Shown here: piece after piece, positions 1 through 13,018 of the stretch
Layout of the letters: each line of letters opens with the position of its first letter
Position numbering within the stretch: position 1 is the first letter of the stretch
NCBI GenBank assembly: GCA_028716845.1
Contig: JAQUPF010000011.1
Span: forward strand, 1 to 64,000
Source of the DNA: a bacterium
Lineage (GTDB): Bacteria; Auribacterota; Tritonobacteria; UBA1439
DNA length: 64,000 bases
Direction of reading: 5' to 3'
Program-made: the position numbers and the translations under genes
Notes under the pieces: generated by a model
Told to the model about the DNA's origin: nothing
What the model saw: only the letters and a program-made list of their open reading frames with translations
Databases searched by the model: none

Positions 1-3000
1 CACCACATGATCATCCCCCCCATCGAAGGACAGGGCCCCTCCCCCTATGCCGCCAGTCCACGTGGGCGCGTTCCGAGGCGTCGCCTCACATGCCGGCATC
101 AGTCCCCCATCCCTCCCGTTCCCCGAACTGTCGACCGCGACGCATCCCGACTCTTCATTGAACCTCCAATATCCGACCGGAGGCATCGGCATGGCGGTCC
201 CGGTCGGCGTGGGCGTGGGAGTGCCCGACCACGCATCGGTGGGAGTCGCCGTAGGAGACGGCTCCACTGTCTCCGTCGGCGTGCAGGTGGGCGTTGACGT
301 CGGCACCTCCGTCGGCGTCGGCGTGGGGGTCGGACCCGACGTCGGCGTGGCCGTCGGCGTCGGCGGCACAATCAGCTCCACCGATGTCGCATAGTCGAGG
401 AACCTGTTCGGATCATTGTACGGCACATCCACGGGCTCCCGCGCGATGTAGTGCGGCGCCCATGTCCCCATGGCCGCATTATCGAGGCCTGCATCCTCGT
501 ACGTGGCGCCGTCGATGGCGACGTACAACTCTCTCTCCTGACTGCTCTCCACACGCGGAAAATGCACATTGATCACGCTGCCGTCGCGGCAGGTCAGCGC
601 GAGCGCAAAATACTCACGCACCACCGCGTCTTCGGACGTCGATACCTTTACTTTCACGATGTCCGGCTCGTTTGCGATCTGACCGGGGGTATAGGCCGGA
701 ACACCTCCGTCCAGCACAAACTCCCCTATCTTGTCTCCACCCGTGAAGAACTCCCACTGAATAACCCCCTCCCTCGGCGGCCAATTGATGTGGGTGAGCT
801 CCACCGCGGGCAGCGAATCCAGCACCAGAGGAACGGGGGGATCGCTGATGTCCTCATACGTGCTGTCCTTGTCCGTCATCCACGACCGATACGCCAGATC
901 AAATGCAGCGTCTGCGGCAATGCGGATCTCTCCGCTCGACACCGCGTTCTCGCCGTGCAGGAAGAACGCCAGCCGCAACTCGAGAATCTCGGTCCCCTCG
1001 GGCAGCTCAACCGTGCCGCTCTCACGGATCGGATCGCCGAGACAGCTCCCTCCGCCATCATACGCCTGCACACTGTGGAACCCGCCCCTGTCTACCGAAA
1101 GGAACGATTCCCCCTCTCCGACCTTCAGCCAGACGCCGCCCGACCGATCATCACCCAGGATCCGCTCGCCCGGATTGTTGTTCGCAAGATCCACAAGGAT
1201 CCTCGCCTCATTGCCGGTGAACGAGACGACCTCGATGGCCGCCTCCGGCGCGGGATAGTCCATGTCGTCACCGACGAAACCCTCGTCCACGCCGGAGTAC
1301 TCACTGAAGGCTTCTTCATATGGTATAGCGATAGCGCCGCTGTACGAGGTCGGATAGGGACTCTCTTCTGCCCCGGCGATACATGCCTCTATCTGCCTCC
1401 TCCAGCCGACCGGTGTCATCTCAACTATATCGGCCCACGCATCTTGATATACAGGACGGTTCGGAGGGAAATGCTCGGGCGCCGTGGCGGAGAATCGGTA
1501 CAGCGATGTGCCTGCCTCATTGAAATAAACAACGGAGGCCAATGGAAGGCCCCTGCTGAGAAGTAGTGGAATGGCGTTAGGATTGTCGGGAGAAAAAGGA
1601 GATTCCCGAAGTCCGAATCCGTAAATGTCATCCTTTTCATAATTCCCATCGTCGACTTTGTTGATAAAACGAATAGGATTCATTGCCGCACCATGTGTTA
1701 GATAATGCCCTCCGGCGCCCATGGCGGTTATGGATTCATTTGTAATCTTCTTCGTGTAAGAATTATAACTGTTCACATGGAGGAACCCGTCTTCATAGGG
1801 AGAAAAGGGAATGCCCTCCATCTCCTCCGGCGATGAACGCCATAAATCCTCTCTCCCGTCTCCGTACGACCCGTACACCATCGGCATGATGGTGTCCACA
1901 TGCGTCTCTTCCACAAGCGCTCTGTAAAGATGTATGTCCTCGGGCCAGCAGTGCGCCGTGAAGATCAGGTCCGGCGGCACGTTCAGGTTTTGATAGAGAT
2001 TGAACATCTCCTCCCATACGCCTTGATCGATCGCATGCTCAAAAACGATTGTGATACCGTCAAATTCACTATCAGCATCGACGGCATCGTTATACTTGAT
2101 CACGGCGCCGATACAATCTTGATTACATTTGATCCAATTTCTATCAGAGTCGCAGGTTGGGTAATAGTATTCGTCCGGGCAACCTATATAATCCCCTATT
2201 GAATTGTTATTTACAATCGCGTGGACTTGCATTCCCTTCTCATGTGCTTCGCGGATAAAATCTTGTAAACCGTCATAGTCCCAGTCCCAGCCACCACAAT
2301 CATAACACCAATCCTCCGTCGTGAGGAAAACGTGCTTGACCCCCCTCTCCGCAAGCAATTCAGCTGTGTTGTAACTGAATTCCGCATCTTTAAGATCGAC
2401 CGTCCGGCCCTCCGATATCTGTACGCCGTCACCATATTCCAGCACCGCCTCATCATGTTGCCTGAGCCCATATAGCCATTCCACCTCGCTCGCGCTCAAC
2501 TCCCTGTCGAATATGTTCACCTCGTCAATGATCCCGTCGAAATGCCAGTTGGGATTGCCGCCGTCATACGCGCCGCATCCGATGTACATCGGGTCGGTCG
2601 ACCCATGGTACACCGCTTCGTATTCACTCTCACTGGCCTGCTTCACCCCGTTGACGTACATCTTCACGACGGTCCCGTCACCGCCCCACGTCACCACAAG
2701 GTGGTACCAGCGATCAGCCTCCATCTTGCTGTTGCTGATCACGCATCCCTCATCCTGCTCATTGAAGGTGAACAAGATCCGCTGATACACATCATGATTG
2801 GCGAACAGGTTCCAGTTCGGCCACTCGGAATACCCCCCGCTAATCGAATCCCTCCCCTTCCCCATCAGCACCACGTGATCATCACCGACGGTGGCCGCCT
2901 TCGCCCACAACGAGATCGTGAACGGCCTACTCAAATCGAACACACCTGTCGGGTCGTCCACATGTACATGATCCTCGTCCCCGGCGAATTTCAGCGCCGT

Positions 3001-3906
3001 GCCCTTCACACCATCAACCCAGCAATTCGACTCGCACGGCTCCATGTTTACCAGCACGCCATCCCTGCCGTTCTCCAAATCGTCATGCGCCGTGCAGCCG
3101 ATCCCCTCGTCAAACCGCCACCGGCCCGCAGTCAGATAGTACCTGTCACGCACCTCCTGCGCGCTTATCTCCCTCCCCAGCACCTCCACCTCGTCGATGA
3201 TCCCATCGAAATGCCAGTTGGGATTGTCGCCGTCATACGCCCCGCATCCGATGTACATCGGGTCGGTCGACCCATGGTACACCGATGTGTATCTACTCGC
3301 ACGATCCTGGATCACCCCGTCCACGTACATCTTCACCCGCGTCCCGTCACCGCCCCACGTCACCACGATGTGGTACCAGCGATCAGCCTCCATCTTGCTA
3401 TTGCTGATCGCACATCCCTCATCCTGCTCGTTGAAGGTGAACATGATCCGCTGATACCCGTCGTGATTGGCGAACAGATTCCAGTTCGGCCATTCGGAAT
3501 ACCCCCCGCTGATCGAATCCCTCCCCTTCCCCATCAGCACCACGTGATCATCACCGACGGTGGCCGCCTTCGCCCACAACGAGAGCGTGAACGGACCGTT
3601 CAAATCGAATGCCGCTCCCGCATCCTCCACCACCACATGATCATCAACTACAGGTTCCTCCGTTCCATTGAACTCCAGCGCCCCGCCCTGCACGCCACCT
3701 ACCCAGCATTCTTCCGTGTCCATATTGACCAACACGCCATCCCTGCCGTTCCCCGAACTGTCGACCGCGAGGCACCCCGACTCTTCGTTCAATCTCCAAT
3801 GGGCAAGCAGGTCCTGCGCGTGCGCGGGAGTCCGCTGCAGCGTACTGAGGAGGATTACAGCCAAGGTGCTGCTTGCAATGCCGTACTTGCCGGTGAAAAG
3901 ATTCAT
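1..3906 (-). CDS. Secreted multi-LamG protein with TIM-barrel-like core (paralogue 1, 3' end beyond window)
   Basis: The frame is open for all 1302 codons from the ATG at 3906 to the window edge, so the C-terminus is missing. A strong Shine-Dalgarno (AGGAGG) lies about 8 nt upstream. Residues 1-31 form a Sec signal peptide ending near AHA. Two LamG/concanavalin-like lectin domains follow (about 32-265 and 266-480), each with WRxxE and SLWAKA-type strands. About 490-840 is a TIM-barrel-like region resembling GH18-type folds: FDGITIVFE near 613-621 and MPMVYG near 674. Relative to GH18 DGxDxDxE, the first Asp and final Glu are kept and the middle Asps are lost. A beta-rich region, a Pro/Thr linker (about 1180-1239) and the start of a third LamG domain follow. 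It probably acts outside the cell, binding or processing glycans. A GEMM-I riboswitch precedes it. Its G+C looks lower than downstream genes. Specific function unknown. Confidence 0.85.
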   Translation of the reverse strand, partial: MNLFTGKYGIASSTLAVILLSTLQRTPAHAQDLLAHWRLNEESGCLAVDSSGNGRDGVLVNMDTEECWVGGVQGGALEFNGTEEPVVDDHVVVEDAGAAFDLNGPFTLSLWAKAATVGDDHVVLMGKGRDSISGGYSEWPNWNLFANHDGYQRIMFTFNEQDEGCAISNSKMEADRWYHIVVTWGGDGTRVKMYVDGVIQDRASRYTSVYHGSTDPMYIGCGAYDGDNPNWHFDGIIDEVEVLGREISAQEVRDRYYLTAGRWRFDEGIGCTAHDDLENGRDGVLVNMEPCESNCWVDGVKGTALKFAGDEDHVHVDDPTGVFDLSRPFTISLWAKAATVGDDHVVLMGKGRDSISGGYSEWPNWNLFANHDVYQRILFTFNEQDEGCVISNSKMEADRWYHLVVTWGGDGTVVKMYVNGVKQASESEYEAVYHGSTDPMYIGCGAYDGGNPNWHFDGIIDEVNIFDRELSASEVEWLYGLRQHDEAVLEYGDGVQISEGRTVDLKDAEFSYNTAELLAERGVKHVFLTTEDWCYDCGGWDWDYDGLQDFIREAHEKGMQVHAIVNNNSIGDYIGCPDEYYYPTCDSDRNWIKCNQDCIGAVIKYNDAVDADSEFDGITIVFEHAIDQGVWEEMFNLYQNLNVPPDLIFTAHCWPEDIHLYRALVEETHVDTIMPMVYGSYGDGREDLWRSSPEEMEGIPFSPYEDGFLHVNSYNSYTKKITNESITAMGAGGHYLTHGAAMNPIRFINKVDDGNYEKDDIYGFGLRESPFSPDNPNAIPLLLSRGLPLASVVYFNEAGTSLYRFSATAPEHFPPNRPVYQDAWADIVEMTPVGWRRQIEACIAGAEESPYPTSYSGAIAIPYEEAFSEYSGVDEGFVGDDMDYPAPEAAIEVVSFTGNEARILVDLANNNPGERILGDDRSGGVWLKVGEGESFLSVDRGGFHSVQAYDGGGSCLGDPIRESGTVELPEGTEILELRLAFFLHGENAVSSGEIRIAADAAFDLAYRSWMTDKDSTYEDISDPPVPLVLDSLPAVELTHINWPPREGVIQWEFFTGGDKIGEFVLDGGVPAYTPGQIANEPDIVKVKVSTSEDAVVREYFALALTCRDGSVINVHFPRVESSQERELYVAIDGATYEDAGLDNAAMGTWAPHYIAREPVDVPYNDPNRFLDYATSVELIVPPTPTATPTSGPTPTPTPTEVPTSTPTCTPTETVEPSPTATPTDAWSGTPTPTPTGTAMPMPPVGYWRFNEESGCVAVDSSGNGRDGGLMPACEATPRNAPTWTGGIGGGALSFDGGDDHVV
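189..370 (-). repeat. Low-complexity Pro/Thr-linker coding repeat
   Basis: An approximate hexamer repeat (CCGACG/CCCACG on the minus strand) encodes a PTPTATPT-like linker in the LamG paralogue 1 protein. It separates the catalytic-like part from the C-terminal LamG domain. Such linkers are typical of secreted modular proteins, and the DNA is prone to length variation by slippage. Confidence 0.75.
2521..3620 (-). repeat. 669-bp internal direct repeat encoding LamG domains 1 and 2
   Basis: Sequence at about 2521-2955 recurs at about 3190-3624 with high identity and an offset of 669 bp (223 codons). Matching landmarks are the block around 2581 (GATGTACATCGGG) and that at 3250. The repeat corresponds to the two N-terminal LamG domains and indicates an intragenic domain duplication that is recent or has been homogenised. 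Confidence 0.85.
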
Positions 3907-4066
3907 CAGGTCCCCCTCCTATCTTGAAGGATGGTCGTCAACTGACGCACTTTCCGCTTCGCCCTTTCCGGGACGGCGAGAAAAGGCGGATCTCGGTGTT
4001 CAGTTCTTTGAAGCGCAATTCCAGTGTGTGATTACCCTGGCGACTTGCTTCGGTTCTCCGTACGCC

Positions 4067-4114
4067 AAAAAAAATAACCGGGCTGCCGAATTCTCAACAC
4101 CTTCGGCAGCCCGG
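4067..4114 (-). terminator. Intrinsic terminator in the leader of LamG paralogue 1 (riboswitch expression platform)
   Basis: On the minus strand a perfect 13-bp stem (CCGGGCTGCCGAA at 4114-4102 pairing with 4090-4078) closes an 11-nt loop and is followed by TTATTTTTTTT (4077-4067). The 5' arm is the same sequence that forms the 3' strand of the GEMM-I aptamer, so aptamer and terminator folds are mutually exclusive. Confidence 0.88.
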
Positions 4115-4203
4115 CCATCTTCCCCGCGCATCACCACCGCCACTTGAGGGGTAAGATCCGTGGCTTTGCGTCGCCCGGTCTCCCGGGTTTTGCCTTTATC
4201 GAA
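4102..4203 (-). promoter_or_regulatory. GEMM-I (cyclic-di-GMP-I class) riboswitch aptamer, copy 1
   Basis: Read on the minus strand, the leader shows GGCAAAACC, a CCCGG/CCGGG helix capped by a GAGA (GNRA) tetraloop, then GACGCAAAGCC. A second helix follows (ATCTT-a-CCCC with GGGGAAGAT), then GGCCGGGCTGCCGAA. Outer TTCG/CGAA bases can close it. This order and these conserved blocks match the GEMM-I motif. The base aligning with position 20 of the V. cholerae Vc2 aptamer appears to be G (c-di-GMP type rather than cGAMP type), although one extra A makes that alignment uncertain. Because the 3' strand is shared with the terminator arm, ligand binding is predicted to prevent termination (ON switch) for the LamG gene. 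Confidence 0.88.
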
Positions 4204-4212
4204 TTAATTTAT

Positions 4213-4241
4213 ATCCTGCTATGACTCACTAGTTATGTCAA
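4213..4241 (-). promoter_or_regulatory. Sigma70-like promoter for LamG paralogue 1
   Basis: Perfect -35 TTGACA (4241-4236), a 17-bp spacer and a weaker -10 CAGGAT (4218-4213), just upstream of the riboswitch aptamer. An A/T-rich tract lies upstream of the -35 box and could act as an UP element. The same arrangement is found before paralogue 2. Confidence 0.6.
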
Positions 4242-4377: not shown

Positions 4378-4656
4378 CGTGTACAGGATCCGCGTCCATC
4401 CGCGGCAGAAATGCTGTTTCTTCCGGCTGCAATCAGATCCGCGTGAATCCGCAATAATCCGCGTGCATCCGCGGTGAATTGTTTCTTCGCGCTCTCGGCT
4501 ATCAACTTCCCGCTGCGGGCGGATCCGTGGAGATCCGCAATGATCCGCGGCAATCCGTGGTGGATTGGTTCTTCGCGCTCTCGGCTATCAACTCCCCGCC
4601 GCGGTCGTATCCGTGGAGATCCGTGATGATCCGTGGGGATCCGTGGTGGATTGGTT
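4378..4656. repeat. Decamer repeat array (ATCCGYGNNN units)
   Basis: Gene-free stretch made of degenerate 10-bp units, e.g. from 4611: atccgtggag, atccgtgatg, atccgtgggg, atccgtggtgg. It includes two right-hand ends of the form CCGTGGTGGATTGGTTCTTC. It lies next to the clpB fragment and is the copy of the array found downstream of the intact clpB. Confidence 0.8.
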
Positions 4657-4673
4657 CTTCGACATGGACGGCG

Positions 4674-4836
4674 TCAGGACGCCTTCCGGAAGGTGAACCC
4701 GCCGCGGGCGTCCGCGTCCACCTCGACCGCGTCCCCCTCGCGGAACTCCCCCTCGAGGACCTTGAGGGCGAGCGGATCCTGGACGGCGCGCTGGATGACC
4801 CGCTTGAGCGGCCGGGCGCCGTAGACCGGGTCGAAG
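4674..4836 (-). pseudogene. Duplicated 3' fragment of clpB
   Basis: This 163-bp segment is identical, as far as I can see, to 10427-10589, the last 53 codons plus stop of clpB. It begins at the codons for [11 protein letters not shown] and ends with FTFRKAS-stop. Identity ends abruptly at 4836/4837, where the sequence joins the 3' flank of LamG paralogue 2. It has no start and is a remnant marking one breakpoint of the tandem duplication. Confidence 0.92.
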
Positions 4837-4867: not shown

Positions 4868-7800
4868 CTATTGGGCAGGCTCCAGGTTGTACCCGTACTG
4901 CATCTGGCCGTTATAGAAAATGTACGCGTGCGCCACGAGCGCCCCCGTCGCACCATCATGGCTTACCCTGATCGAACCGCAGTCGAACCCAGGCGGGAAG
5001 TACTCGAAAAAGCCCCGCGACACGACGCCATGAGGCGCGATCGTGAAATCAACCGGCGGCGATACCTGCCCGTCGAGGTTCGTCAGCGTCACCGTCCCAT
5101 TCACCACCGCCGATGTGGTGTTCGCAATGTAAAGCACCGTGTCGTTCTGCTCCTCCTGTCGCCACGTCCAGTACCACGCACCATACAGGGGGCCTGCAGT
5201 CGCATGGACAGGTTCCAAGTTGTACCCGTACTGCATCTGGCCGTTATAGAAAATGTACGCGTGCGCCACGAGCGCCCCCGCCGCACCATCATGGCTTACC
5301 CTGATCGAACCGCACTCGAACCCAGGCGGGAAGTACTCGAAAAAGCCCCGCGACACGACGCCATGAGGCGCGATCGTGAAATCAACCGGCGGCGATACCT
5401 GCCCGTCGAGGTTCGTCAGCGTCACCGTCCCACTCACCACCGCCGATGTGGTGTTCGCAATGTAAAGCACCGTGTCGTTCTGCTCCTCCTGTCGCCACGT
5501 CCAGTACCACGCACCGCATAGTTGTTCGGGATACGAAAATACATGAGCCGCATATTCATTCTTAAGGAACTTATCGGGGTTATGATAGGGAATGTCTATC
5601 GGGTCTCTGGATATGTAGTGTGGAGCCCATGCACTCTGTGCACAGTTCGCGAGGGCCTGATCGTAATGGGTTGATCCATCAATCGCAACATACATTTCTC
5701 GTTGGGTCTTTGCCCAAGGATAATGCACATGGATTACGCTGCCATCCTCGCATGTGATTGCAAGCAGGAAATCTGCTGGAACATATCCACCGCCTGACAT
5801 GGCCACTCGCACTCTCATCGGCGCCGGGGCAGTATCCAATCCTTTGGCATAGGATGGCTCCCCATTGGTCAGGGTGAATGTTCCCAAAGTTCTTTCCTCA
5901 GCCCCTTCCATAACATAAAAGGTCCAGGTGATAGTACCTGCCCCTGGAGGTTCGGGGCGATTGACAGCCGTCAATGCAACATTTCTTATCGATCCTATGA
6001 CTAATGGAATCGGGTTCAAGCCAATATCTTCGAATGTGCTGTCTTTATCGGTCATCCAGGAACGGTAATAAAGTGTGAACGGTGCTTCGATGCGAATGTC
6101 GCCGCTCGTTACCGTATGCTGTCCCGGCAGGAAGAACGCCCTTCGCAATTCCATTATCTTCGCATCTTCTGGGACGGACTCCCCTGGGAGCACAGGTTCA
6201 CCCATTGGGGTTCGAGAACCATCATACATTTGGATGCTGTGGAAATCCCCATGTTCCGCTAAGAGGAAGCATCCTTCTCCGACAAGCTCTAAATAGACCC
6301 CGCTGGAACGGTCATCTCCCACGATAGCCTCTTCCGGATTATTGTTGATCAACTTAACACGAATGGTGGCCATGCCATTGTCCCATGAGATCACTTCGAT
6401 CCGAGTATCCGGTTCCGGATATACGTTGTCATCCGGCAGTGCGCCCTCATCGAACAATGCCCTCTCCATCCCGATAAATGAATCCCCACAGCCAACCTCA
6501 TCGGCACCTCTTTGACTTTTAATCGTGCTGCGGCGTGTGCATATCACGCCGGATTCACGTACGTCGTACCAGTGCTCAGGATCATCATTCTTCTCAAAGC
6601 GATATACACTCACTCCTGATTCATTGCAGTACCACGCGCCATGAAAGGAGAACTCTTCGCTTGATGAAAGCATGGGTATTCCATACGGGTTATTCGGATT
6701 AAAGGCACCATAATGACCCTCATCGTCTAAATCTTCGATATGGCCGATACTGAATTCAGGATGGAGCCAGAGCGGTCCAGAATACGATCTACTAAGTTTG
6801 ATATAAGCTTCACAATTAGGTCCACTCCAAAGTAAATATCCTTCAGGCCCCATATTGTAGAATGCGCGCTTTGTCCATGAACGGTAGAAATCGTAACTAT
6901 CGTGAATCGGCATCCCTTCTCTGTAGGCGATATTGCCACAACCCCACCCAAATGTGATGAATGATTCGGGCATTACTCCATCAAGGTGAGTTTCTGTTAA
7001 GACTCCCTCTTTTTCGCAATGCGTTACCCAGCTCCAGAGTGTGAAATATAGATCCGGGGGCACATGGAGATTCCTAAAGAAACTCAGCATGGTGTCAGTG
7101 TCTCCAGCCCCCTCATATTGGATAACTATTCCATCAATCTTCTCGGAGTCCCTCTCACATACTTTGTTATAGTCCACAAGCGCATCTATGAATTGTTGAT
7201 TGAACTCAACTCCGCCATGAGGGGATAGACTCCGATATGTCGTCCAACCCTTGTAATTGTTAAGTACAAAGGCATGGATCTTGATGTCATGCTGATGTGC
7301 TCGCACGTACAATTCCTTTAGATCCCCATAATCAGGAGCACCCGGTATTCCCCACTCCTCGGCGCGAAGAATAATCTGTTTGATCCCCTCTCTCGCGAGA
7401 TCGTCCACGAGTTCTTCCTCATGGCCGATGAATTCTTCACCGGATAAGAGCAGCCAAGGACTCTTGGCCAATGGCCCAATTCTCCTCAGCGCACTATGCC
7501 ATCTAATTTCATCGTGGCTGAGTTCTCTGTGGTAAATCATTACCTCGTCGATGGCACCGTTGAAATGCCATTGGGGAGGATCGTAGCACTCTGCACCGCT
7601 CCCGACATTAATATCGCCGCCTGAGGGAAGCAATCCTGAAGGAGACTGAGCCGATTCTGCGGCCGCATTGCCGTTGATATACATTCTAACCTTATTGGTT
7701 CCGCCACCCCATGATATCGCTATGTGATACCACTCCCCCGGCTCCATTTCTAAGCCGCTTTGCACAAGGCAGCTTTCCTCGCCGAACATGAACACCAGCT

Positions 7801-9634
7801 GGTCATCGATATTCGTGTATTTGGCGAAGAGCGTCCAGACAGGCCATCCGGACTCATCACGCTTGCACACGAGAGCGGCGTGCTGGTTCTCCTGAAAAGA
7901 AACCGCTTTCGCCCATAAGGACAGCGTGAAAGGTGTCCTGAATTCAAAATCCGACTCGTTATCGGCAACCGCAATATACTCACCCGGTTCAAAGATCATA
8001 GCCTGCCCGACAATGTGTTCTTGAATCCGTTTCGGGGATGTAATCGGGCAGTTCGGCATCAGCATGCCGTCATGGGCGTTGGGGGAACCATCCAGCACCA
8101 AACATCCATCACTTTCCTCAAATGCCCACCGTGCGCCTATCATACAATACTTGTCGATAATCTCGACTGGGCTGAGCCTGCGATCGTATAGCTCGACCTC
8201 ATCGATGATTCCATTGAAATGCCAAGAAGGGGTGTTATGATCTCCCGATGCGCATCCGATGTACAGAGCGTCTGTCGAGCCGATAGACTCTGCCTCATAC
8301 GGCTCAGCGGACTCATCTTGGAGAACGCCGTTTACGTATAAGAGGACATGATTCCCGGCCCCACCCCAAGTGACTACGATGTGGTGCCACTTGTCGGGCT
8401 CCATCGGCTGGATGCTGCTGACCTCCGCATCATGCTCTCCGTATGTGAACCGAATACTGTTGCCGTCTACGGTCCCTCCCTTGGCGAAGAGATTCCAAGT
8501 GGGCCATTCTGAATAGCCCCCTTCGCTGATAGAATTCCTGCCTTTCCCCATCAAGCCATATGTCTGTGGCAAGAAACCTTCTCCCCGAGGAGAGAGATCC
8601 CATGCCTTTGCCCAGAGAGAGATTGTGAACGCACTGGATAAATCCAGCTTTGCATGGGAATCATCCACACGCAGGTAGTCATCTGTGCCATTGAATGAAA
8701 GCGCCCTGCCTCTTATCACATCTGAATCCAGCCGTGTCGGAGTATTAATAAGCTCTCCATGCAATCCATTCCTCCCAGTATCATAAGCAAGAGAACCGGT
8801 TTCCTCGTCGAATGACCACCGGGAGTATTGAAATTTCTTATACTCGTTATTGATCTCACTCTCGCTCAGCTTCCTAGGGAATACCTTTATATCATCCACA
8901 ATACCGTCAAAGTGCCACTTCGGGCTTGCATCGTCTCCATAGGCAGCGCACCCGACATACACAGGGTCCATGGAGCCATGTGATGTAGCTGTGTAAGGTC
9001 CAGAAGTATTACTCTGCAACGCTCCATCCAGATACATCCTCACAGGAGTGCCGTTCCCACCCCATGTGACTGCAATGTGATGCCATTGGCCCACAATCAT
9101 CGATTGATCACTGTATGCGTACCCCTCCTGTTCACGGAATATAAAAGCTATCTTGCCCCCGAACTGGCAACTCGGATCAACGGCATAAAGGTTCCATGCG
9201 GGCCATTCCTCCCCGCTGATTCCCTTTCCCATAAGCCCTATCCGTTCCCACCAGCACGCCCATTCACCAATACCCCCGTCCTTGGGAGTCAGCGAATATG
9301 CCTTTGCCCAGAGAGAAATTGTGAAGGGAGCATTGAAGTCAAATACTCCAGCGGTGTCGTCTACACCTACATAATCATCATCGCCGTCGAATTCAAGTGC
9401 GCTTCCTTGTATTCCGTTTCCTATCCACGTTGGACTATTCAAAGCACAACTCGGCTCAAGCAATCCCTGCCTGCCGCTCCCTGAACTGTCGCCGGCGACA
9501 CACCCTGATCCCTCGTTGAACCTCCAATGGGCCAAAAGGTCCTGGGATTGTGCATGAGATTGCGGCAGGGCGACGAAGAGGATCATGATAAGTGTCCCAC
9601 ATGCAATGGCGCATTTGCCGGTGAAAAGATTCAT
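4868..9634 (-). CDS. Secreted multi-LamG protein with TIM-barrel-like core (paralogue 2)
   Basis: 1588-residue secreted protein. The ATG at 9634 has the same AGGAGG ribosome site as paralogue 1. A signal peptide covers about residues 1-30. Three LamG lectin-like domains span roughly 30-262, 270-495 and 505-735. About 745-1060 is a TIM-barrel-like region with IDGIVIQYE near 831-839, keeping the first Asp and last Glu of the GH18-type motif but not the middle Asps. Beta-rich segments shared with paralogue 1 follow. The C-terminus is two nearly identical ~100-residue beta-rich repeats (about 1375-1480 and 1486-1588), each starting [13 protein letters not shown]. It is probably an extracellular glycan-binding or glycan-acting protein controlled by the riboswitch at 9830-9931. 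G+C is visibly lower than in the clpB side genes. Enzymatic activity is not demonstrated by the sequence. Confidence 0.88.
4880..5516 (-). repeat. 333-bp tandem direct repeat at the 3' end of LamG paralogue 2
   Basis: Two copies (about 4880-5183 and 5213-5516) are offset by 333 bp (111 codons) and differ at only a handful of bases. They encode the two C-terminal beta-rich repeats of the protein, pointing to a very recent or homogenised intragenic duplication. Confidence 0.92.
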
Positions 9635-9794: not shown

Positions 9795-9842
9795 AAAAAA
9801 AATAACCGGGCTGCCGAATTCTCAACACCTTCGGCAGCCCGG
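9795..9842 (-). terminator. Intrinsic terminator in the leader of LamG paralogue 2
   Basis: Same 13-bp perfect stem (9842-9830 with 9818-9806) and TTATTTTTTTT tract as at 4067-4114. The 5' arm overlaps the 3' strand of the upstream GEMM-I aptamer. Confidence 0.88.
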
Positions 9843-9931
9843 CCATCTTCCCCGCGCATCACCACCGCCACTTGAGGGGTAAGATCCGTGGCTTTGCGTC
9901 GCCCGGTCTCCCGGGTTTTGCCTTTATCGAA
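9830..9931 (-). promoter_or_regulatory. GEMM-I (cyclic-di-GMP-I class) riboswitch aptamer, copy 2
   Basis: Identical in all conserved blocks to the copy at 4102-4203: GGCAAAACC, the GAGA-capped CCCGG helix, GACGCAAAGCC, the P3-like helix and GGCCGGGCTGCCGAA. It precedes the terminator and LamG paralogue 2, with the same predicted antitermination logic. Confidence 0.88.
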
Positions 9932-9940
9932 GCAATTTAT

Positions 9941-9969
9941 ATCCTGCTATGACTCACTAGTTATGTCAA
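9941..9969 (-). promoter_or_regulatory. Sigma70-like promoter for LamG paralogue 2
   Basis: TTGACA (9969-9964), 17-bp spacer and CAGGAT (9946-9941), conserved with the promoter of paralogue 1. Confidence 0.6.
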
Positions 9970-10109: not shown

Positions 10110-10413
10110 TACAATACGCGGCGATCCGTGATGATCCGTGGCAATCCGTGGCAGTAATTCCATTTCTTCCGGCTGCAATCAGATCCGCGTGAATCCGCAA
10201 TAATCCGCGTGCATCCGCGGTGAATTGTTTCATTGTGATTTCGGCTCTGGGCTTTGGACTTCCCGACGCGGTCGTATCCGCGGAGATCCGTGATGATCCG
10301 CGGCAATCCGTGGTGGATTGGTTCTTCGCGCTCTCGGCTATCAACTTCCCGCTGCGGGCGGATCCGTGGAGATCCGTGATGATCCGCGGCAATCCGTGGT
10401 GGATTGGTTCTTC
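10110..10413. repeat. Decamer repeat array downstream of clpB
   Basis: Gene-free array of ATCCGYGNNN units with two right ends reading CCGTGGTGGATTGGTTCTTC. The last end lies about 15 bp beyond the clpB stop codon. No open frame here resembles a protein. Confidence 0.8.
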
Positions 10414-10426
10414 GACATGGACGGCG

Positions 10427-13014
<2,588 letters not shown>

Positions 13015-13018
<4 letters not shown>

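Follow-up and report, generated by a model that had tools for sequence, protein, structure and literature searches.

A c-di-GMP class I (GEMM-I) riboswitch, very probably acting as a transcriptional ON switch ahead of a LamG gene, was found in two identical copies on the minus strand of the window (the whole stretch of DNA that was analysed, 64,000 nt). The window is a clear example of leader copying, in which a second gene has acquired the riboswitch leader and a scar marks where the copy came from. Its aptamer also warns against reading a ligand from the name of an Rfam variant.

Aptamer class and position

Aptamer copy 1 was located at 4101..4203 and copy 2, identical to it by sequence comparison and also matched by Rfam, at 9829..9931 (both minus strand). 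RF01051 (c-di-GMP-I) scored 70.7 and 70.6 bits for the two aptamers (cut-off 35). RF03167 (c-di-GMP-I-GGC), which was the top Rfam name by E-value, scored 63.0 bits for the aptamer at 4203..4101 (E 1.6e-12 in the 64-kb scan; cut-off 59). A third, diverged aptamer of the same genome was found at C2:84412-84318 (59.7/59.9 bits with the Rfam models). Read in the sequence, the window copy has the core GACGCAAAGCC, a P2 of CCCGG-GAGA-CCGGG, in which GAGA is a GNRA loop, and the P3 3' strand GGCCGGGCTGCC. The first-pass annotation had described the complete conserved order of GEMM-I in this leader, with a GNRA-capped P2, and had proposed a check against RF01051; all the elements that it named were found, on the minus strand, the P2 loop was as described and the score was twice the cut-off. 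On sequence grounds, the element is an ordinary representative of a well-known kind, the c-di-GMP-I (GEMM-I) riboswitch. All conserved parts of RF01051 (Vc2 type) are present, including G20, A47 and C92, but the window differs from that type by a long P3 extension (~30 nt insertion) and by a terminator that overlaps P3.

Ligand assignment

Pocket positions were numbered as in the Vc2 aptamer, counted along the Vc2 sequence. Alignment to the Rfam model gave G20, A47 and C92 for the window aptamer, which is the canonical c-di-GMP set. All three aptamers of the genome have G at position 20, not the A of the cGAMP type (GEMM-Ib), and A at position 47, not the G of RF03167. In the printed consensus, the pocket stretch reads GACGCAAAG for RF01051 (A at 47) and GACGCGAAG for RF03167 (G at 47). 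The name 'GGC' is taken here, in line with this consensus, to denote bases 20/47/92; the variant classes were reportedly described in a PNAS paper in 2017.

A true c-di-GMP-I-GGC variant, sensing a ligand other than c-di-GMP, would account for the first rank of RF03167 among the Rfam families, and the ligand of that variant may differ. Model and window also have the P3/P1 sequence AGCCggGcUGCcgaag in common, with a score above the cut-off. This reading is nevertheless highly unlikely, since at position 47, where the RF03167 consensus has G, the window and the readable relatives have A (fragmentary or weak matches aside) and since RF01051 also matches, at twice its own cut-off. Across ~60 aptamer matches from relatives, A47 was present wherever the core was readable (fragmentary or weak matches excepted), and an A47G copy was not found among these readable cores. 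RF03167 taken at face value was ruled out by the base at position 47; given A47, the name reflects overall sequence likeness and not a changed ligand.

A cGAMP (GEMM-Ib) or promiscuous dinucleotide riboswitch would share the same scaffold, and G20A copies occur among family relatives (L030, L031). An A at position 20 is the mark of cGAMP riboswitches. Position 20 merely guides the selectivity of GEMM-I (PMC9262584), which speaks in favour of such a switch, whereas G20 is kept in both window copies. Of the three GGDEF proteins of the genome, two have GHxxGD (the usual base-contact Asp) and one has GHxxGN (Asn). In the Hypr cGAMP synthases a Ser, S347 in GSU1658, presumably occupies the position of the GGDEF base-contact Asp. 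This Ser, S347 of the Hypr enzyme GSU1658 (PMC6456294), was found in none of the genome's three GGDEF proteins. The cGAMP reading was rejected on G20 and on the missing Hypr Ser, and a cGAMP or promiscuous switch is considered very improbable.

With G20, A47 and C92 all canonical, c-di-GMP is the best ligand call and is probably the cellular ligand of the window switch. The earlier wording, 'c-di-GMP or a related dinucleotide', was therefore narrowed to c-di-GMP, which agrees with G20/A47/C92, and the cGAMP (G20A) and 'GGC' (A47G) readings were dropped.

Elsewhere among the relatives, GEMM-I copies with the cGAMP-type A20 were noted in G001 (L030, L031, L033) and G024 (L067, L069), and both genomes also have G20 copies. 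Hypr Ser was seen in 0 of the GGDEF domains read in G001 and G024. L044 was tried as a further G20A copy and rejected: its C21-G46 pair is compensated and G20 is kept.

Riboswitch and GGDEF genes tend to occur together across 44 genomes of the phylum, apparently Candidatus Auribacterota: there were 21 with both, 1 with a riboswitch only, 7 with GGDEF only and 15 with neither (Fisher p 2e-5, a statistic that ignores shared ancestry). In G013 (94% completeness) there was one c-di-GMP-I match (L058) and GGDEF was not detected. The GHxxGN GGDEF protein is conserved across the family (L025 and the likely orthologs L164, L176, L178, L179 and L185). No other GGDEF protein was found in G002, a genome that has riboswitches.

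Terminator and switching mechanism

An intrinsic terminator was identified by folding and shuffling at 4067..4114 (minus strand), with a stem made of CCGGGCTGCCGAA (4114-4102), an 11-nt loop and TTCGGCAGCCCGG (4090-4078), followed by the U-tract TTATTTTTTTT. The stem has 13 perfect pairs (-27.5 kcal/mol), and an equally good one arose in 0 of 60 shuffles of the downstream sequence. The overlapping terminator of copy 2 (9795..9842, minus strand) is identical by sequence comparison. The 5' arm (4114-4102) consists of the P3 3' strand, C92 and the P1 3' strand of the aptamer, 13 nt being common to both structures. Because this arm is taken from aptamer strands, aptamer and terminator are mutually exclusive, as the first-pass annotation had proposed from the 13-bp stem and its U-tract; the whole arm proved to be shared.

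The ligand-free cost of forcing the aptamer was 0.9 kcal/mol at the aptamer end, 3.6 at +20 nt, 12.4 at +24 and 19.9 at the U-tract. Given this rising cost, ligand would probably not prevail at equilibrium and is expected to exert its effect while the RNA is still being transcribed; in the folding model, the decision window of the switch should be kinetic and span ~20 nt after the aptamer.

The closest known system is the pilM riboswitch of Geobacter metallireducens, a GEMM-I element with a 25-nt binding window and exclusive folds, in which the terminator takes the ligand-pairing C75 (PMC9262584). The window terminator is of the same type, its 5' arm holding the P3/P1 3' strand together with the ligand-pairing C. 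The exclusive folds and the pilM measurements together point to a transcriptional ON switch, so that both elements would be ON switches in which the terminator buries the ligand-pairing C; for the window, ON polarity is expected by analogy. The two differ in ligand, pilM sensing cGAMP and the G20 of the window predicting c-di-GMP, and in target, which is a pilus gene for pilM and a LamG exoprotein for the window. The window switch has a precise mechanistic precedent. A specialist would single out two points, the duplicated leader and the caution over the RF03167 name.

In the proposed mechanism, RNA polymerase would make the aptamer first. If c-di-GMP were bound within ~20 nt, the P3 3' strand, C92 and the P1 3' strand would be kept in the aptamer, and polymerase would read through into the secreted LamG-domain gene. 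In the unliganded RNA, the shared strand would pair with the sequence just downstream, C92 would be buried and transcription would stop at the U-tract. The LamG gene would then be transcribed only at high c-di-GMP. Computation supports the earlier prediction that a dinucleotide turns on a secreted lectin-domain protein, as regards the riboswitch class, the mutually exclusive terminator, the polarity (ON) and the target.

Promoter, ribosome-binding site and regulated genes

A -35-like hexamer, TTGACA, was read at 4236..4241 upstream of copy 1 and at 9964..9969 upstream of copy 2 (minus strand). At 4241-4236, no good -10 lies at 16-18 nt, the promoter scan found no sigma-70 -35/-10 pair, and the nearest TATAAA is 22 nt off. 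Of the perfect -35 box annotated earlier, the hexamer is thus present and its -10 partner is absent from the sigma-70 scan. Both leaders end with the Shine-Dalgarno sequence AGGAGGGGGA (3911..3920 in copy 1, minus strand) followed by ATG (3906, 9634).

The lack of a clear promoter and the very stable terminator (-27.5 kcal/mol) would also suit a decayed or duplicated relic, in which the terminator forms whatever the ligand. Such a relic is extremely unlikely: a leader of ~300 nt is identical in two copies whose flanks and coding sequence differ, the pocket is intact, and a Shine-Dalgarno sequence and long open frames follow. A functional ON switch is preferred.

The genes downstream encode LamG exoprotein 1 (1..3906, minus strand) and LamG exoprotein 2 (4868..9634, minus strand; 1588 aa, three LamG domains), both assigned by domain match and with signal peptides recognised by eye. 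Two or three LamG (Laminin_G_3) domains were found per protein. The contig end cuts gene 1, so the size of protein 1 is a lower bound, at least 1302 aa; the giant secreted LamG protein foreseen at copy 1 is a secreted LamG target with a full size that is open-ended beyond at least 1302 codons. A role of the LamG proteins in adhesion or polysaccharide handling seems plausible. The C-terminus of protein 2 contains a 111-codon tandem repeat (4872-5171, 5205-5504; DNA 98% identical).

The third switch of the genome stands before a sigma-54 activator (AAA+) gene (L027:5190-6269). This activator has no obvious receiver domain, and its C-terminal end looks frame-shifted.

Duplication of the leader

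The two leader copies are identical at 297 of 297 positions from 4203 to 3907, and the first eight codons of the two LamG genes differ at 2 of 24 bases. Beyond these codons, identity drops abruptly, to 73% for the coding DNA and 38-48% for the proteins. Between LamG gene 2 and leader 1 lies a copy of the clpB 3' end (4674..4836, minus strand; last 53 codons plus stop). This scrap is near-identical to the end (10427-10589) of the intact clpB at 10427..13018 (minus strand), which lies directly upstream of leader copy 2 and was identified by sequence comparison as its source. The identical leaders and the clpB scrap, set against the diverged coding regions, argue that a single block, spanning the clpB end, the leader and the first codons, was copied recently. 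By this comparison, a block of ~1 kb (clpB 3' end, leader, first codons) is a recent duplication onto an old, diverged paralog, the leader of gene 1 being the recent copy. Gene conversion and unequal recombination both fit as the route; an assembly join at a repeat is a possible source of the two identical leaders.

Similarity confined to the leader was also found among switches of one genome in G001, G012 and G017 (L078/L081, L055/L056/L057, L031/L035), which suggests that leader copying is a habit of the group. It is conceivable, though rather doubtful, that the riboswitch, terminator, RBS and signal-peptide start form a mobile regulatory cassette and that secreted and surface regulons of this lineage grow by leader copying before diverged genes, the clpB scrap being the scar seen here.

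Intergenic repeats of the form GATCCGCGG...ATCCGTGG were seen upstream of all three leaders (4387-4586, 10133-10339 and L027:6450-6640).

Relatives within and beyond the phylum

Overlapping terminators were searched at the 52 aptamers of the phylum that had enough sequence, with trimming of outer pairs allowed, as the window stems run on into the U-tract. They were found at 15 of the 52, whereas shuffling of the downstream sequence gave an expectation of 0.35. In the third copy of the genome, the overlap is kept with a different stem, GGCCGAACTGCC/GGCGGTTCGGCC, which indicates compensatory change.

In Rfam scans of Desulfobacterota, Nitrospirota, Omnitrophota, Elusimicrobiota and Auribacterota, the pattern GCCGGGCTGCC...GGCAGNCCGG...TTTTT was present behind GEMM-I at no fewer than 30 of 58 loci, so the overlap platform is not new. 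The overlap terminators of the first four of these phyla have a pattern like that of the window; their GEMM-I elements differ in hosts and genes, and many have a flipped C21-G46 pair.

Elsewhere in the phylum, the switch precedes genes for, among others, pilin-like N-methylation proteins, S8 proteases (subtilases), and fibronectin-III, sugar-active and large secreted proteins. Pilin-like, protease and secreted targets are usual for c-di-GMP regulons. A predicted c-di-GMP ON switch, with secreted lectin-domain, pilin-like and protease targets, is placed here in an uncultured phylum. In G024, two tandem c-di-GMP-I aptamers lie ahead of one gene (L066:202-429).
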